Part shown: one piece after another, positions 12,184 to 20,725 of the stretch
How the letters are laid out: each line of letters begins with the position of its first letter
Numbering within the stretch: position 1 is the first letter of the stretch
Origin: Microcaldota archaeon
GTDB lineage: Archaea; Micrarchaeota; Micrarchaeia; Micrarchaeales; Micrarchaeaceae
Direction: 5' to 3'
Assembly: GCA_021801355.1 (NCBI GenBank)
Contig: JAJYYB010000016.1
Coordinates: 1 to 42,285 of the forward strand
Length of the DNA: 42,285 bases
Notes under the pieces: generated by a model
Seen by the model: only the letters and a program-made list of their open reading frames with translations
Told to the model about the DNA's origin: nothing
The model's database searches: none
Translations under genes and position numbers: made by a program

Positions 12184-12256
12184 GGGGCTGTACGCTAACC
12201 TGGCAGACTACCGCGTTCGGGTCGCGGTTATCCGAGTTCAAATCTCGGCAGCCCCA
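12184..12256 (+). tRNA. tRNA-Pro(CGG)
   Basis: The acceptor stem is GGGGCTG/CAGCCCC with discriminator A. The anticodon stem CCGCG/CGCGG encloses the loop TTCGGGT (anticodon CGG). The T arm is CCGAG-TTCAAAT-CTCGG. No intron is seen. CCA is not encoded. Its 3' end is the left attachment site of the 5-kb element, which keeps the tRNA intact. Confidence 0.92.
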
Positions 12257-12259
12257 TTT
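12245..12259 (+). repeat. Left attachment site (attL) in tRNA-Pro
   Basis: TCGGCAGCCCCATTT is the end of the tRNA-Pro T arm, the acceptor strand, the discriminator and 3 nt beyond. It is identical to 17275-17289 in the same orientation. Similarity continues weakly past the repeat (GAAT on both sides). Confidence 0.85.
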
Positions 12260-12355
12260 AGAATTATCGACGTTAGAAACAGTGTTCGGTGCTGAAGAAA
12301 CAGATATATTTTGTTGATGTTTTGGCATTTGAAACGCACCAATTTTGATATTCAT
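12245..12355 (-). pseudogene. Integrase N-terminal fragment (intN), separated by integration
   Basis: From ATG 12355 the minus strand encodes 37 residues, beginning MNIKIGAFQMPKHQQ and reaching KWGCR inside the tRNA-Pro 3' end. In the integrated state the frame then runs on through the antisense of the tRNA and stops at 12131-12133, so the 74-codon open frame is a chimaera. In the circular form it would continue into NSKTFASTPK of the C-terminal piece, giving about 452 residues. A TATA-like box precedes it. It is a partitioned gene rather than a decayed one. Confidence 0.75.
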
Positions 12356-12448: not shown

Positions 12449-12847
12449 ATGACGGATATATTTTCTAAAAGAAAAAGAAGCGCACTTATGGCGTCCGTCA
12501 AAAGCAAGAATACCGATATAGAACTAAAGTTGATTAAGGAATTGAAATTTAGGGGTATTAAAGGTTTTGAATTACACGCCGATATGATTGGCAGACCAGA
12601 TATAGTATTCAAAAATCAAAAACTAGCAATCTTTTGCGATGGCGACTATTGGCACGGATATGGATTCGCAGAAAGAAAATCAAAAATGAAGCGATTTTGG
12701 CTAAATAAGATAAATGGAAATTTACTTAGGGACAAGCAAATAAATAAGGAGCTCAGAAACGCACACTGGAAAGTTTTGAGATTTTGGGGGCACGAAATAA
12801 AAAATGATAGCGCTTTATGCGTTACAAAAATTGAGAAGTCATTGTAG
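12449..12847 (+). CDS. vsr: Vsr-type DNA mismatch endonuclease
   Basis: The protein has 132 residues. It cuts next to T:G mismatches that arise when 5-methylcytosine deaminates. Family features are the start MTDIFSKRKRSALMASVKSK, then RPDIVF (Asp51), FCDGDYWHG (Asp64 and His69), FWLNKINGN, RD and WKVLRFWGHEI. It lacks the Cys/His zinc ligands of the E. coli protein. ATG 12449 is chosen because homology to Vsr begins there and CATAAATAC (about 12419-12427) is a suitably placed TATA box for a leaderless mRNA. The methyltransferase follows 11 nt later, the usual partner of Vsr. Confidence 0.88.
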   Translation: MTDIFSKRKRSALMASVKSKNTDIELKLIKELKFRGIKGFELHADMIGRPDIVFKNQKLAIFCDGDYWHGYGFAERKSKMKRFWLNKINGNLLRDKQINKELRNAHWKVLRFWGHEIKNDSALCVTKIEKSL

Positions 12848-12858
12848 GATGGTTATCA

Positions 12859-13881
12859 ATGGATAAAATTGTTGCTGTCGATTTGTTTTGTGGGGCTGGT
12901 GGACTTACTGCGGGATTAAGAAAGGCTGGCGTAAAAGTGGTTAAGGGGATAGATATAGATTCTGAAGTTGAAAAAACTTATAAATTAAATAATCCTGGAA
13001 GTACTTTTTTGAACAGGGATATAAGTGAAATTACGGCAGAGGACCTCATTCAAGGGATTAACAGACAAAATGACCTATTTCTACTTGCTGGTTGTGCCCC
13101 GTGCCAACCCTTTTCACTACAAAATAGAACAAAGCGTAGAGATAAAAGGAAATCGCTAATGAAACAGGTAGGCAGGTTAATTGATTTGACAAAGCCAGAT
13201 TTGGTACTAGTAGAGAATGTACCTGGTTTTATCAATAAAAAAAATCGGTATCATACGGAGTTTATTGGGATACTCAAGAAACACAAATACTTTTTTTCAG
13301 AAGGCATACTAAATGCTAGAGATTATGGTGTGCCACAAAATCGTAGGAGATATGTATTGTTTGCTTCTTTGCGTAGCAAAGTTTCTTTGCCAGAAGCAAC
13401 TTATGGGCCTGGAAAATTAGATTACGTTACAGTAAAGGATGCTATAGCAAAGTATCCTAGAATAAAGGCGGGTGGAAGCTCGAAAAGTTTTCCGAATCAT
13501 TCATCTAGAATCTTATCTGACTTAAATCTTGAAAGACTTATGATTATACCTAAAGATGGAGGCTCGAGGAACAGCTTGCCTAAAGCACTTGAACTAAAAT
13601 GCCATAATGAACATAACGGCCATTATGACGTATTAGGGAGAATGCGTTGGGATAAACCAGCTCCTACACTTACCTGCAAATGTACAAGCATAACCAATGG
13701 CAGATATGGCCATCCAACACAGAATAGGGGCATATCGTTGAGGGAGGCAGCAGCTCTGCAAACATTTTCAGATGACTATATATTCTATGGGTCCAAAACA
13801 AGCATAGCAAAACAGATAGGTAATGCCGTACCAGTCTTGCTCGCTCAAAAATTAGGATTTGCGTTAATTGCAACTAATTAA
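12859..13881 (+). CDS. DNA (cytosine-5-)-methyltransferase
   Basis: The enzyme has 340 residues and all main C5-methyltransferase motifs: DLFCGAGGL (I), GCAPCQPFS with the catalytic Cys82 (IV), VENVPGF (VI), RDYGVPQNRRR (VIII), KPAPTLTCKC (IX) and AKQIGNAVP (X). The target-recognition region between VIII and IX is about 90 residues, so it should recognise one short site. The target sequence cannot be read. GGATGGT just before the ATG may be the ribosome site. It is partnered with Vsr upstream and overlaps the convergent ATPase-nuclease gene by 4 nt. Confidence 0.93.
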   Translation: MDKIVAVDLFCGAGGLTAGLRKAGVKVVKGIDIDSEVEKTYKLNNPGSTFLNRDISEITAEDLIQGINRQNDLFLLAGCAPCQPFSLQNRTKRRDKRKSLMKQVGRLIDLTKPDLVLVENVPGFINKKNRYHTEFIGILKKHKYFFSEGILNARDYGVPQNRRRYVLFASLRSKVSLPEATYGPGKLDYVTVKDAIAKYPRIKAGGSSKSFPNHSSRILSDLNLERLMIIPKDGGSRNSLPKALELKCHNEHNGHYDVLGRMRWDKPAPTLTCKCTSITNGRYGHPTQNRGISLREAAALQTFSDDYIFYGSKTSIAKQIGNAVPVLLAQKLGFALIATN

Positions 13882-15737
13882 TCCTCTTCTTCTTTATGAT
13901 TTTTTGCTTTTTCAAATTTCTCGACTTTTTCTTCGTATTCTGCGTGAAGTCTTCTAGCCATAGATATAAGCCCTTCATAAGTCCTTACGTACCTTCTATT
14001 TCTTTCAGCTTCGTCTATGGCTTTTTGAATATTGCCAGTCCCTATGGCTCCAACTACTAAGTATCCGGCTACAGTTTTGTATCCTTTTCTATCAGAACCT
14101 AAATTCTCCTCTACAAATGCTACATAATTGAAAAGTTGTTGCATATCTTCAGTTGAAAGTTTATGGGACGGTCTTTTAAGTTCTATAACGTTTATTGTAT
14201 CGCCTATGCCTATCGATACAAAGTCTATTCTCCTATCCTTCTGGTCAAGTTTTTCATCAGGAAATTTATCTCGCAGCAGTTTAGAGTATCTAACCTCGTG
14301 TTGCCAGCGGGTCCAACTGGGATCCAATATCCATGGCCATTTCGCAAAAAATTTATGCATTTCTGGTACCTCTTTGGCATCCTTGTCTATTAAGGTACCT
14401 AATTCTTTTATTGCTGTTAACCTACCTTTTACAATTCTCAATATACCTCTGGCTTCAATAAGATCCCATTCCATAAAGATTTCCATGATTTGTGTATCAG
14501 TAGGTTGCCCAGAGAGAGTGCCAACCATTTCATGAAAAACTTCTTGGTCGAATGAATCTACCATGAATCTTGCTATCTCAATTCGTCTTTCGTCTGATAA
14601 TGTTTCGCTAGAAGTAAGAGCTGTAATCACTTTATTTGCTGTTTTGATTTCCGCATCTGGAAGACTGTCTAACCATACTTTGAAAAACGGGTCCTCACGT
14701 ATAACCTTTTCTTTTTCTTTTCTTCGATTTTCGCTCCATTCTGAAGCGATACTTTTTAATTTCGCTAAGCCCCACTTTCTGAGCGCTTCGCCTTCTTCAG
14801 AAGCCCATATTGCTGACTGTCTATCTGTAGATATTAAATCATATTTTTTATCAAAGAAATCCGCGTGTACTTCCCCAGTTAAGTATGCATACGCATATTT
14901 ATCCCCGACTTTTGAATCAAAGGTTGTGGGAGACTGCAGTAACTTGCCTCTTGCCATTATTACTATACCTATATCTGATTCATCTAATGGTTCTTTGTTT
15001 GTACCTATCCAACCAGAAACTTTCCAATCTTGGTGGCTATCATCAATTATTTCATCAACATCCCAAACATACTGCATTTTAGTCTTGTCAAATTTGTCTG
15101 CATTTGTAATTTGCTTGCCATTTACTTTTACTATAAATTTGTTGTCTATCACAGAAAAATTTCTAGCTACGCCCCTTTTAACTACCTGTTCATCTATATC
15201 CCCGGTTTTCTTCAGCTTCCTTAATGTAACCTTGGTACCTTGTTCTTTACCATAAGATTTTTCGTTTGTTTTCAATATTTTTGGGTAATAAGGCTTATTC
15301 TGTTTTGCGGATTCGAGTATATCATCTATGTTCATTTCAAATGAGTTTGCCAGACTATTTTGGACTGTTTCGATTTCAACAGATTTTGCAACACCGAAAA
15401 CAGACAATTTGCCTATACCTTTCCTTCCCATTACTGGCCTGCCTTTAGCCGTTTCGTCTTTTCCTTCTTCTTCCCTGCGTTTTCTACCAACTATCAGGTA
15501 GTTTTTTCTGATTTGATTATAGGCCATACCTAAGCCCCAGTCTTCTACGGTAATTTGCGAATTTTCATCCAAAGGTCCTGTAGGTAAAGTAATATCTACA
15601 TTTGGAGAATCCGCGTCCCAAGAGTTGGATATGATTTCTGAGATAACAGAATGTACTCTTGTATAAAGTTTTATACCGAGATCTTCTATGACCGTTAATT
15701 GTACACTCATTTCTAAAGGTTCCAGTGATTCGGCCAT
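13878..15737 (-). CDS. GHKL (MORC/MutL-like) ATPase fused to PD-(D/E)XK nuclease
   Basis: The protein has 619 residues. The N-terminal Bergerat ATP-binding fold shows EIISNSWDAD (Glu34, Asn38, Asp41), EDWGLGM (66-71), GRKGIGKLS (104-112) and GTKVTLRKL. A middle helical region of about 300 residues follows. The C-terminal domain has RRIDFV (Asp505), VIELKRP (Glu519, Lys521) and a helix with QLFNYV, the layout of a PD-(D/E)XK nuclease. A charged tail (EEKVEKFEKAKNHKEEED) ends it. MORC-like ATPases in predicted restriction-modification operons are a known theme. With the methyltransferase next door it is the likely restriction factor, perhaps an ATP-gated DNA clamp-nuclease. Confidence 0.8.
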   Translation of the reverse strand: MAESLEPLEMSVQLTVIEDLGIKLYTRVHSVISEIISNSWDADSPNVDITLPTGPLDENSQITVEDWGLGMAYNQIRKNYLIVGRKRREEEGKDETAKGRPVMGRKGIGKLSVFGVAKSVEIETVQNSLANSFEMNIDDILESAKQNKPYYPKILKTNEKSYGKEQGTKVTLRKLKKTGDIDEQVVKRGVARNFSVIDNKFIVKVNGKQITNADKFDKTKMQYVWDVDEIIDDSHQDWKVSGWIGTNKEPLDESDIGIVIMARGKLLQSPTTFDSKVGDKYAYAYLTGEVHADFFDKKYDLISTDRQSAIWASEEGEALRKWGLAKLKSIASEWSENRRKEKEKVIREDPFFKVWLDSLPDAEIKTANKVITALTSSETLSDERRIEIARFMVDSFDQEVFHEMVGTLSGQPTDTQIMEIFMEWDLIEARGILRIVKGRLTAIKELGTLIDKDAKEVPEMHKFFAKWPWILDPSWTRWQHEVRYSKLLRDKFPDEKLDQKDRRIDFVSIGIGDTINVIELKRPSHKLSTEDMQQLFNYVAFVEENLGSDRKGYKTVAGYLVVGAIGTGNIQKAIDEAERNRRYVRTYEGLISMARRLHAEYEEKVEKFEKAKNHKEEED

Positions 15738-16026: not shown

Positions 16027-17307
16027 TTATTTTATAAGTCTCTTCTTCATAGCATCAATATCATTAATGCTCACACTATCAATCGCATCATATAGTTGCT
16101 TCTTATTCGGGCTTATGTAAATCATCGTGGTGCTAGGGTCGGCGTGCCTTGCGAATCTGCTTGTTATTACTAAGTTGCCATTAGTCGCCTTTGACATCTG
16201 TGTTATGGCGTAGTGTCGCAGACTGTGGGTTGTAAGCAAATGCAACCTTCGCTTTGTGCGTTCATTGTTTGATTCATCAGAGAAATCGTAAACGTCATCG
16301 TTTAGCTTTGCCTTCTCGGCATAGTGCCTGAAGCGGTTTCGTATGTAGTTTATCTCGAAGTAAGGCGTCTTTCTGGCATAGCCCTGTTTGGTTCGATCAG
16401 GGAAGAAAAGGTAACCTACAGAAGCCTCTATTTCAGGCTTGTATTTCCTTATGTACTGGATCGTTTCGATAAGTAGCTGCTCTGGAATCCGCAAGGTGTC
16501 CAGCCTGCCTGACTTCTCGGACTTAAGCTTAAGCTCCCTGTTTTGAATGTCTATATTGCATAGATTAAGCCTTTGGGCTTCGCCCACCCTAAGCCCTAGA
16601 ACCGCTTGATAGCGGAATAGCATGTAAAAGCGGTCATCGTCTATGGCCTTGAAGAATAGCCCTAGCTTATAGTCGTCGAAGCCTTTGTCCAAACTGCCGT
16701 ACTTCGGCACTCGCCTCCTATGGTACTTCTTGACGTAGAACTGCCGTATATCGGTTGTTAGCGCCTCTAGCTCATGCTTTGCCAGCTTGGGCATTATCTG
16801 GTGCAGGTAGTCCTTCGTGCTCTCTAGGCTCAAATCTAAGCCTCTATTGAGTTCGGGGCTTGAGTGTTCGATTTCAGGTGTGTGATACCTCACATCTATG
16901 CCGTTCATGGTGATGACCATATTTTTGAAAGGTTGCATATTCGCAGTTAAATCCAGTGTTCGGATGTCGCTGTTTTTGCAGAGCGATTGACTGTTAATCC
17001 ATTGGTCGCGGAATGCACCATCCGGGTCCGGTTCCTTAGCCGGGCCTTTGACCCGATCATAGGTTGCAATCCTGCTTGCGGCATTGAACCTGAAGCCCGA
17101 ATATGGGAACTGGCCATTACTCCCATCGTCGGCGCCCCTAGGCGCCTCCTTGCTAGGGCTTGGGGCTCTCTCGGCATCTTGGCTAGCTTGGGGGCGTCTA
17201 GCTTGGCTAGCACTAGCTCTCTTGGAATCTTGGGTCTTGGGGTCTTTGGGGGTCGATGCAAAGGTTTTTGAGTTTCGGCAGCCCCATTTTGGAATCACTG
17301 ACGACAA
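16027..17307 (-). CDS. Tyrosine recombinase, C-terminal piece of SSV-type integrase (intC)
   Basis: The open frame has 426 codons from a TTG at 17307; the true episomal gene enters through attR (KWGCR at 7-11). Residues about 12-60 are low-complexity and basic (KDPKTQDSKRASASQARRPQ). The catalytic domain shows Arg in LGLRVGEAQRL, HSLRHYAITQM (HxxR), RFARHADPSTT and the nucleophile Tyr in MIYIS. It has no start region or promoter of its own in this state because those lie at the other end of the element. A paralogue lies just outside on the plus strand. Confidence 0.85.
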   Translation of the reverse strand: MSSVIPKWGCRNSKTFASTPKDPKTQDSKRASASQARRPQASQDAERAPSPSKEAPRGADDGSNGQFPYSGFRFNAASRIATYDRVKGPAKEPDPDGAFRDQWINSQSLCKNSDIRTLDLTANMQPFKNMVITMNGIDVRYHTPEIEHSSPELNRGLDLSLESTKDYLHQIMPKLAKHELEALTTDIRQFYVKKYHRRRVPKYGSLDKGFDDYKLGLFFKAIDDDRFYMLFRYQAVLGLRVGEAQRLNLCNIDIQNRELKLKSEKSGRLDTLRIPEQLLIETIQYIRKYKPEIEASVGYLFFPDRTKQGYARKTPYFEINYIRNRFRHYAEKAKLNDDVYDFSDESNNERTKRRLHLLTTHSLRHYAITQMSKATNGNLVITSRFARHADPSTTMIYISPNKKQLYDAIDSVSINDIDAMKKRLIK

Positions 17308-18326
17308 AATCGGAGTTCAAATCTAAGAGAATCTTAGACCCCGATAGCGAAGGCGTGTTCAGAAAAAATCTAGTTTCTGAACACAAACCTTTAAGTATTA
17401 GTGAAGCGGGGGCTTCACGAGGAGCAAGAAAACCCGAACTCCTGAAATTGAAAGATAGCCTAGAAACCGCGCTTCCCAAGTTATCGAAGCGTGAGATGGA
17501 GAACCTCACATCTGAGATTAAGAAGTATTACGTAAAGAAGTTCCATCGCAGAAAGACGCCGAAGTACGGCTCGCTGAACAAGGGGTTCGAGAGCTAAGAG
17601 TTGCAGGCGTTTTTCAGGGCCATAGACGATGACAAGTTCCATCTGATCTTTTCTTATCAGGCGCAACTCGGACTTAGGATAGGGGAAGTTTGCAAGCTGC
17701 ACCTAAGCGGCATAAACTTCCAGACAAGGGAATTGACCCTAAAGACTGAAAAGGCGAAGGTCGTAGATTCACTTATCATTCCGATGCCTCTTTTCACAGA
17801 AACTGTGAACTTCATAAGACTGCACGAAAGCCAGATAGAACAGGCTGGCGGGTACCTGTTCTTCAAGGACTCGAACAGCATAAGAAAGGAGCGCTTCATA
17901 GGCCCGAACTACGTAAGGGGGATGTTCAGGCGCTACGTGGTCAAGGCTGGCTTGGACTTCACGTATGACATAAGCGATGAGTCAAGCCCAGACAGGGCTA
18001 CAAGAAGCCTGCACAGGCTTACCACGCACAGCCTGAGGCACTATGCGATAACCCGCTTCGCCAAGCAGACGAACGGGAATCTGGTGCTTACCTGCCGTTT
18101 CGCAAGGCATAGCGACCCAAGCACCGCGATGACCTACATAAATACCGACAGGCAGGAGTTGTACGATCAGATAGGTGGCACATTTGGGGTAAGCCAGGCT
18201 CTAGGTATCCGTGTAAACTGCAGACACATAATTCAGCAACATATAGAGCGATGCGGGCACAAAAACTGTGCTCCTGAGAGGGCTACTCCCGCCGTACATG
18301 GTAGATTCTCCTGCGTTTACCAATGA
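17256..18326 (+). pseudogene. Second tyrosine recombinase, interrupted by an in-frame TAA
   Basis: Residue patterns match intC closely: HRRKTPKYGSLNKGFES against HRRRVPKYGSLDKGFDD, then AFFRAIDDDKF, LGLRIGEVCKL, HSLRHYAITRF, RFARHSDPSTAMTYI. At 17595-17597 a TAA replaces the Tyr codon found in the paralogue; both halves are in one frame, so it is a single nonsense change. Similarity ends near 18174 (YDQI), after which the frame continues with unrelated sequence. The true start is unclear because ATG 17256 lies before attR. It is probably a relic of an earlier element at the same tRNA. Confidence 0.75.
17275..17289 (+). repeat. Right attachment site (attR)
   Basis: This is the second exact copy of TCGGCAGCCCCATTT. 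On the minus strand it encodes KWGCR in frame with the integrase C-terminal piece, just as attL encodes KWGCR in frame with the N-terminal piece. Confidence 0.85.
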
Positions 18327-18335
18327 TTTTGGTAT

Positions 18336-20213
18336 TCAAGGAGCTATGGGCGGCGTAGCCCACTTGAATGTGGCGACCTGACCAGTGCCGCCCAGACCAC
18401 CGCCGGTATCAGTGCCGCCATACGTGTTGTTAACTGTTATGCCACCGCCGTTCACGTTGTACGTGCCCGGTAGATAACTACTGCCATACGCTAGCATTAT
18501 GACGCCACCTCCTGCACCACCGCCTGAATCATGGGTTTGCGAGCACGTGTGCGAACCAGATGCACCGGAGCCTGCGTACGAACTTGGGAATGAACTTCCT
18601 GCGCCGCCATTAGCACCGCTGGCTGAATCAGCACCACCGCCGCCGGATCCGGATTCCAAGTAATTCTGGAAGCCGTTTGAATTCCATAGTTGTATGTTGC
18701 TGTTCGAAAGTACCGGTGCCGTAGGTGTGCTGCCAGGGCCATCGTTCGAGCCACCTGCAATTAGGGTGCTGCCACCTGCTCCTGGAGCCGGGCAATGTCC
18801 GCTGCCGCCAGGACTGCCATTGGAAATCCCTGACGCACCGTCCTGGCCCATAGCATTTATAGTACCACCGACGATATTCGCCGCCTGTATATATATGCCG
18901 TAGCTGCTGCCACCACCTGATCCATCGACCCCTGATATTGCAGCCGCACCGCCATCGTTGGCGTTTCCTGCATTTAGCACTCCGAAGTTGCTAAAGTTTT
19001 CTCCTGCTATAAGTATGGCGCCGTCGGTTGTTAGCTCCACACCGCTGTCCACTGTTATGTTACCGGATGCAGATACGTCCCCTGTAAGCGTCGTTGCCGT
19101 GGTGTAAACTATGTCTCCTGTGCATGTGCCGCTCTGCAGATTAGCGCACGTGGATGTAAATGTTGGTAACCGTCCTGGTAGCGGCTGCACGCTCCATTGG
19201 TATGTCACAATCTGACCATTGCCACCGCTGTAACCGTTGTTGCATTGGAAGCATGGTTGGCTAGTGCCGCCAGGAGCGCCGCTCACGTTGTACGTGCCGG
19301 GCAAATAGCCTCCTGGTCCATAAGCAAGGAATATTACGCCACCACCGGAGCCACCACCACCATCAAAATTAGGGAAGCATGAACCTCCTCCCCCTCCGCC
19401 GCTACCTGCGTAAGAATCGGTAAACGAGGCGCCGCTGCCGCCATTGGTGTTGGTACCTGCATATGCACCTCCACCACCAGAGCCAGATTCCAAGTAATTC
19501 TGGAAGCCGTTGTTATACCATATCATTATATTGAGGTTAGAAACCTGCGGTGCAGATGGTGAACTACCCGAAGTCGGAGCACCACTGCCTTCAGCACCAC
19601 CAACAGCCAGGGTGCCGCCACCAGTACCGCCTGAATCACAGTATACGGAACCAGAGGCACCTATGTAGCCTGCGCCGTTACCGCCTGCCTGACCGTTGGC
19701 ATTTATGACGCCGTTAGATACATCAATGCTGTACGCTTGTATGTAGATACCATATGCGCTTTCTCCGCCTGACCCACTATTCACGCCACCGGCCGCACCG
19801 CCGTTATTCGCATAGCCTGTGTTTATAACGCCGTTATCCGTAAAGGTGCCAGACGTTATTATGCTGTGACCGTTTGCGTTCAAAGTTGTAGACGCATTTA
19901 TTATAATATTGCAGTTAGTCACCACATCATTAGACAACGAGCCGCTCAGGTAAATGGTGCATCCTGTTGCGGATGGTATGACCTTCTTCGCGCTGTTGTT
20001 CAGTGCGTTGTTTATGCCATTCTGCGCTTGAGCAGGCAATGTGGACGATACGTTTGTGAGCACGCCGATGTGCTTCGTAACCGCGTTCTGCGCCATTGCA
20101 GTTTGATAGGGTTTGTTTGTGAATCCCTGATTCATGGCGAACGCACTGGCGAATAGCGCGAACATTACTACAGTAGAAACCATCACCAATCTGGTGTTTG
20201 TATTTGCCTTCAT
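18336..20213 (-). CDS. Secreted glycine-rich surface protein with two related domains
   Basis: The protein has 625 residues. A signal peptide (MKANTNTRLVMVSTVVMFALFAS) is followed by two tandem domains of about 230-250 residues. Each has a beta-rich start (CNIIINASTTLNANGHSI; GNITVDSGVELTTDG), then YGIYIQA, INANGQ or INAMGQ, and a Gly/Ser/Asn-rich stretch with FQNYLESGSGGGGA and GGGVI-LAYG. The same unit occurs once in the protein at 37054-38601. It is probably a cell-surface or adhesive protein. ATG 20213 is chosen because the signal peptide starts there; the upstream in-frame extension is unlikely. No C-terminal anchor is visible. Confidence 0.7.
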   Translation of the reverse strand: MKANTNTRLVMVSTVVMFALFASAFAMNQGFTNKPYQTAMAQNAVTKHIGVLTNVSSTLPAQAQNGINNALNNSAKKVIPSATGCTIYLSGSLSNDVVTNCNIIINASTTLNANGHSIITSGTFTDNGVINTGYANNGGAAGGVNSGSGGESAYGIYIQAYSIDVSNGVINANGQAGGNGAGYIGASGSVYCDSGGTGGGTLAVGGAEGSGAPTSGSSPSAPQVSNLNIMIWYNNGFQNYLESGSGGGGAYAGTNTNGGSGASFTDSYAGSGGGGGGSCFPNFDGGGGSGGGVIFLAYGPGGYLPGTYNVSGAPGGTSQPCFQCNNGYSGGNGQIVTYQWSVQPLPGRLPTFTSTCANLQSGTCTGDIVYTTATTLTGDVSASGNITVDSGVELTTDGAILIAGENFSNFGVLNAGNANDGGAAAISGVDGSGGGSSYGIYIQAANIVGGTINAMGQDGASGISNGSPGGSGHCPAPGAGGSTLIAGGSNDGPGSTPTAPVLSNSNIQLWNSNGFQNYLESGSGGGGADSASGANGGAGSSFPSSYAGSGASGSHTCSQTHDSGGGAGGGVIMLAYGSSYLPGTYNVNGGGITVNNTYGGTDTGGGLGGTGQVATFKWATPPIAP

Positions 20214-20725
20214 ATTATTCCCCGTTTGTATAAGTATTAACGATATGCGCATAAATGCGCTATTGGCGGCGAAGTTGGCCGTTACGTAAGCACTTGACAA
20301 TCTACATAATAGACGTCCACGCACATATTATATGGCAAGCGATCTTATTTGCCTACATTCGTATTGTCCAAGCGATTACATATCTGCTTGCCACGTCATG
20401 CGCATGACATCAGCGTTTGTGTAGTGGTGCACGCATAAAACCATTGCTGATTTTGAAACTCTCATCTTTTTTCAATATGAACCCCATGTGATTGCCGGAA
20501 CGCCACTAAAATTATAATAAGAATAGATAGCTTTTAGATATATATAGGTATTTGTCCGGTACGTTAACGGCTGTAAATGTGTATCGATTAGTAGCCGTTG
20601 AAGCTTAGAAGCCGAGTTACTTATGTTCAGAGATCCGAACCCCGTATTTTGTGTTTGACTTAATGGTGCCATCAAATAGCCAGAAAACATGGGCTAGAAC
20701 CTGACATTCTAGTAATGCATGTAAC
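20214..20725. other. Intergenic region, no gene seen
   Basis: This gap of about 510 bp lies between the surface protein start and the antiporter 3' end. The left part presumably holds the surface-gene promoter (ACTTATAC and CATTTATG on the minus strand). An inverted repeat AACGGCT/AGCCGTT lies near 20567-20603. A 72-codon frame (20472-20690, minus) has no recognisable features and is not called. Confidence 0.35.

Follow-up and report, generated by a model that had tools for sequence, protein, structure and literature searches.

Can three genes on a small mobile element form a defence system of a new type, or do they belong to a known one? This question is raised by a stretch of 42,285 nucleotides from a Microcaldota archaeon (GenBank assembly GCA_021801355.1, contig JAJYYB010000016.1), here called the window, in which an integrated element carries genes for a Vsr-type T:G mismatch endonuclease, a C5 cytosine DNA methyltransferase and a protein joining a GHKL ATPase to a PD-(D/E)XK nuclease. 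According to our analysis, the cassette is very probably a mobile Type II restriction-modification (R-M) system together with a Vsr repair enzyme, as judged from sequence comparison. It is a well-preserved example of an already known type of defence and not a new type, and the new defence mechanism claimed in an initial annotation of this sequence is replaced by a known one.

Family, residues and predicted fold of the nuclease

The assignment starts from the nuclease protein. Over residues 9-610 it matches the NCBIfam family NF050001, 'BbrUII/HgiDII family restriction enzyme' (E=3.8e-116, profile positions 2-650 of 659), and it is also matched by the REase_II model of PADLOC (E=5.8e-49). Domain searches gave HATPase_c_3 (E=2.7e-18) and a weak HSDR_N signal at residues 498-542. 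The initial annotation had stated that no ordinary restriction enzyme is present. This was rejected on the basis of the full-length NF050001 match, by which the nuclease is related over its whole length to the named Type II enzymes of the BbrUII/HgiDII family; the suggestion that the ATPase-nuclease is the restriction component is supported.

Residue conservation was analysed in an alignment of 55 relatives, all of which contain the GHKL domain. The GHKL residues E34, N38, D66, G68, K106, G107, G109 and K110 are invariant, and G70 and T168 are conserved in at least 90% of the sequences. In the C-terminal part, the same level is reached by E456, D505, E519, K521 and Q534, whereas Y538 is invariant. 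We take E456-D505-E519-K521-Q534-Y538 to be the E-D-ExK signature and QxxxY helix typical of RecB/Cas4-type nucleases. Three of these residues, Glu34, Asp505 and Lys521, had been singled out as key positions beforehand, and their conservation agrees with that choice.

A structure model built with AlphaFold from the 55-sequence alignment reached a mean predicted local distance difference test score (pLDDT) of 86.9. It contains an alpha-beta core at 456-586 with secondary structure of the PD-(D/E)XK type (block pLDDT 63-95), including strands at 506-509, 514-520 and 555-562 and helices at 456-466 and 529-546; the model therefore holds a nuclease core where the initial annotation had expected one, in residues 480-600. 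A single-sequence AlphaFold run of the nuclease gave a pLDDT of 35 and was discarded. With Foldseek, the model matched TRAP1/Hsp90 and MORC structures of the PDB over approximately 430 columns; the GHKL part dominates the result of this search, which gave no separate match for the nuclease part. The protein is thus modelled as a GHKL fold followed by a nuclease core with conserved E-D-ExK/QxxxY residues.

These results also bear on the idea that the protein is a new ATP-gated device, in which the GHKL part would act as a sliding or topological clamp, sensing methylation at a distance before cutting, unlike an ordinary Type II enzyme. Such a clamp would be in keeping with the complete set of GHKL motifs (E34, N38, D66, G68, K106, K110) as well as with the fold, which matches Hsp90/TRAP1 and MORC. 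In addition, VcSduA, another GHKL-nuclease, loses phage defence by the equivalent ATPase mutation E27A, as it does by the nuclease mutation K557A (PMC12137116). However, the GHKL domain is found family-wide and is no peculiarity of the window element, and characterised relatives are treated as ordinary Type II systems with the site GTCGAC (PMC5867850, PMC5005818). We consider a new clamp mechanism very unlikely.

Gene linkage and the proposed restriction-modification unit

Further support for a Type II R-M system was obtained from the genomic neighbourhood of related nucleases. A scan of genome contigs with the single nuclease protein gave no relatives, whereas an alignment-based scan of reference genomes found at least 551, of which 80 were kept for linkage counts. 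Of these 80, 52 have a C5 methyltransferase within 500 bp of the nuclease gene and 60 have one within 3 kb; in 24, a methyltransferase and Vsr are both located within 3 kb. In distant flanks of the relatives (372 kb), six methyltransferase hits were counted. The identity matrices of the nucleases (R) and methyltransferases (M) are correlated (Mantel r=0.58, 62 pairs, 0 of 2000 permutations as high), to which shared vertical descent may contribute. The full trio is found on a Deinococcus plasmid (L017), on a Rhizobium plasmid (L018) and in a Chloroflexota genome (L101); an Escherichia phage carries a pair annotated as 'ParaMORC3' and Dcm, and 94 nuclease relatives were found in viral contigs. 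As had been anticipated, the methyltransferase/ATPase-nuclease pair therefore occurs elsewhere. The minimal three-gene form, on the other hand, cannot be called undescribed: the pairing, often with Vsr, is widespread, and such R-M operons were described in 2008 (PMC2292703).

In the methyltransferase of the window, the motifs FCGAGG, PCQ, ENV, QNRRR and GNAV are all present. Its target-recognition region can be aligned to those of the R-linked methyltransferases but has diverged, and no target site can be assigned from the alignment. The Vsr protein scores 98.2 bits on TIGR00632, barely above the cut-off of 97.85, and can be aligned to the Vsr structure 1cw0 (E=1e-12). The catalytic Asp (GRPD) and His (WH) are kept. 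Within the segment corresponding to HGCFWH of the E. coli enzyme, an Asp replaces the first His, as in several relatives including that of the Deinococcus plasmid, and the zinc-site Cys is missing, as in L017 and L053.

By sequence, the locus combines a restriction enzyme with a linked methyltransferase, the pair that characterises Type II R-M systems, and the two would be cognate. We propose that the methyltransferase places 5-methylcytosine at one short target site of the host, and that the GHKL-nuclease would act on this site in its unmethylated state, cutting both strands via E456-D505-E519-K521. Such cutting of unmodified DNA would protect both the host and the element. Cutting is probably licensed when the GHKL domain binds ATP and a dimer closes; control of the nuclease by ATP-dependent dimer closure is plausible by analogy to GHKL biology and to the VcSduA mutants. 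Vsr would nick the T:G mismatches arising from deaminated methylated cytosine. Self-marking by the methyltransferase and a repair role for Vsr had been suggested before, and both are consistent with the sequence data. Regarding the target site, M.HgiDII (PMC5867850) and M.BbrUII (PMC5005818) are 5-methylcytosine methyltransferases acting on GTCGAC. By relation, GTCGAC is the best guess for the window system as well, although a tentative one that we regard as rather doubtful.

Several observations weigh against an R-M system of the BbrUII/HgiDII type. The window nuclease scores 384-389 bits on NF050001, below the equivalog cut-off of 550 bits, which is exceeded by a Halobaculum record (L012, 801 bits) and by the Chloroflexota genome L101 (813 bits); two haloarchaeal genomes, L028 (358 bits) and L033 (345 bits), score like the window protein. 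A tree comprising 93 R proteins joins the window protein to one from Spirochaetia (L025), supported by a value of 94 in the Shimodaira-Hasegawa-like approximate likelihood ratio test (SH-aLRT); L012 and L101 belong to a clade that does not include the window protein. Because of its low score and this tree position, we place the window nuclease in a sister subfamily of the BbrUII/HgiDII enzymes and do not regard it as an equivalog. Moreover, 20 of the 80 relatives have no C5 methyltransferase within 3 kb, and this includes L025, the closest nuclease relative (41%), so that C5 methylation is not a constant partner of the nuclease family. Finally, no clear depletion of GTCGAC is seen in the host genome, with 179 sites compared to 305 for the reversed palindrome, a count that alone is uninformative on specificity.

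Relatives without a nearby methyltransferase lead to a different explanation, namely that the GHKL-nuclease is a standalone anti-phage nuclease similar to Shedu/VcSduA that is activated by DNA ends or phage structures, and that methyltransferase and Vsr are a separate epigenetic or orphan unit sharing the element. VcSduA, with the same layout, acts without a methyltransferase (PMC12137116), and 21 of the 55 aligned relatives weakly match the Pfam domain SduA_C. The window protein itself, however, gave no match to SduA_C/DUF4263 at E<=0.1. The linkage to C5 methyltransferases in three quarters of the relatives, the correlated R and M identities and the full-length match to a Type II restriction enzyme family also argue against independent action, which we therefore consider unlikely, although less so than the clamp. 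Some of the methyltransferase-less relatives adjoin genes for KAP NTPases or Z1/AIPR/DUF4420 genes. The neighbours of L025 include Methylase_S-like, RES-domain and FRG-domain proteins. In the related genomes G021, G043 and G039 (L242, L243 and L244), further GHKL proteins were seen together with a C5 methyltransferase and Vsr; in one of them, a second HATPase domain is present C-terminally and a neighbour is HerA-like, and one resembles MzaB/MzaC.

The integrated element and its integrase lineage

The features of the element are listed in Table 1. Vsr, methyltransferase and GHKL-nuclease are its sole recognised cargo, in agreement with the initial annotation; all three open reading frames are intact and full length, as originally delimited, and are matched by profiles. 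The methyltransferase and nuclease genes are convergent and share 4 bp at their 3' ends. The G+C content of the cargo region is 36%, compared to 46% for the window.

Table 1. Features of the element integrated at tRNA-Pro(CGG); positions refer to the window.
Feature	Position	Strand	Evidence
tRNA-Pro(CGG), integration target; 3' end is the attachment site	12184-12256	+	ARAGORN; sister genomes G002, G003
Left attachment core TCGGCAGCCCCATTT, end of tRNA-Pro	12245-12259	+	exact 15-bp duplication
int(N), N-terminal piece of split tyrosine recombinase, toward tRNA	12260-12355	-	in-frame join with int(C)
Vsr-type T:G mismatch endonuclease, 132 aa	12449-12847	+	PF03852 E=2.6e-19; TIGR00632 98.2 bits
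C5 cytosine DNA methyltransferase, 340 aa	12859-13881	+	PF00145 E=1.5e-55; dcm 150.7 bits
Predicted GHKL ATPase + PD-(D/E)XK restriction enzyme, 619 aa	13878-15737	-	NF050001; PADLOC REase_II
int(C), C-terminal catalytic piece of split tyrosine recombinase	16027-17274	-	PF00589 E=7.6e-10; in-frame across core
Right attachment core TCGGCAGCCCCATTT	17275-17289	+	exact 15-bp duplication

The 15-bp core occurs in only two copies within the window, 5,030 bp apart, which is the size of the element. When int(N) and int(C) are joined across the core, an intact in-frame open reading frame of 452 aa results. Since this rejoining of a split integrase is a hallmark of SSV-type integration, we assign the element to this type from its sequence. 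The sister genome G002 has this tRNA-Pro with the same flanking genes and no element; here, the aspartokinase orthologue lies approximately 3.2 kb downstream, compared to 9.9 kb in the window. G003 shares with G002 and the window the tRNA-Pro and its upstream gene, and the element is absent across the 2.1 kb present before the contig ends. The mobile SSV-type element proposed in the initial annotation was thus recovered with core duplication, joined integrase and empty site.

A second integrase frame of the same family follows at 17256-18326 (+), with an in-frame TAA near 17593, and is probably the remnant of an older element. As the window element lies between tRNA-Pro and this remnant, the integration site seems to have been used twice. 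Next to it, a 662-aa Gly/Ser/Asn-rich repetitive protein, probably secreted, is encoded at 18336-20324 (-); two similar halves are visible by eye, and a Pfam search gave no match.

The split integrase and the stop codon in the adjacent older one could indicate that the cassette, too, is a decayed remnant whose genes were left non-functional after integration, and the absence from the sister genomes gives no sign of long-term retention. However, a split integrase is the normal outcome of SSV-type integration and its joined frame is intact, and the three cargo genes are full length with conserved catalytic residues. Based on the intact open reading frames and motifs, we rejected decay, which appears extremely improbable, and retain a complete R-M system with Vsr as the preferred explanation.

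Integrases of the same family as that of the window element (approximately 50% identity) are found repeatedly across related genomes. In the host genome (1.07 Mb), five tRNA genes, those for Leu(TAG), Ala(TGC), Gln(TTG), Gln(CTG) and Glu(TTC), are each followed directly by such an integrase (L143-L147). Two elements with an integrase of this family were found in sister genomes at tRNA-Pro(TGG) (L240, 970-10100; L247, 1067-9167), bounded by exact tRNA duplications of 62 bp and 76 bp. Encoded on one of the two are a NucS/MrcB-like protein, an N6/N4 methyltransferase, DpnI and a GHKL protein that weakly matches Mrr_cat, and on the other AIPR/AbiU together with a DpnII-type enzyme and an N6/N4 methyltransferase. 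This suggests that the integrase lineage repeatedly carries R-M cargo, although a sample of three elements is too small to establish this. Small tRNA-targeting elements of this kind might even be a dedicated shuttle by which a small-genome archaeal lineage swaps R-M and defence cargo between species. The window element would then represent its minimal form, an integrase plus one R-M-Vsr unit, whose nuclease may belong to a GHKL subfamily that recognises a new target site and cuts under the control of ATP. We regard this as a possibility worth considering, but do not favour it.

Comparison with known systems

In the window, a putative R-M system forms the sole recognised cargo of a site-specific element whose boundaries are exact, which makes it a clean example from the archaea. 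For the family, it raises the question of what a GHKL ATPase is for in Type II-like restriction enzymes.

With the BbrUII/HgiDII systems, the window shares full-length homology of the restriction protein (GHKL and nuclease) and the adjacent C5 methyltransferase, and Vsr is likewise found nearby at L101, whose genome encodes a member scoring above the cut-off. The differences are the score of the window protein (384-389 versus 550 bits) and its pairing with L025 in the tree.

Iyer, Abhiman and Aravind described in 2008 paraMORC3 proteins as GHKL ATPases with C-terminal nucleases of the RE fold, as well as R-M operons joining MORC/paraMORC genes, cytosine methyltransferases and Vsr, some of them without helicases (PMC2292703). 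The window protein resembles paraMORC3 in having GHKL and S5 parts followed by an RE-fold nuclease with E-D-ExK, and Dcm and Vsr neighbours, as judged from the published description; the sequence comparison covered one phage protein annotated as ParaMORC3 (26% identity). The window system differs in being archaeal, in its location on a tRNA-targeting element and in having no helicase. That phage protein belongs to the ParaMORC3-Dcm pair of the Escherichia coli phage PhiR44_1 (PV340563), which likewise consists of convergent genes on a mobile element; there, no Vsr was found within 3 kb.

VcSduA of the Shedu family also has an N-terminal GHKL ATPase fused to a PD-(D/E)XK nuclease, but works without a methyltransferase, and no DUF4263/SduA_C was detected in the window protein. 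Thaumarchaeal integrated elements differ from the window element in lineage, integrase and cargo. Nevertheless, one of these cryptic elements, NitEve-E3, has an SSV1-like split integrase as well, and others carry R-M genes (PMC6563490).

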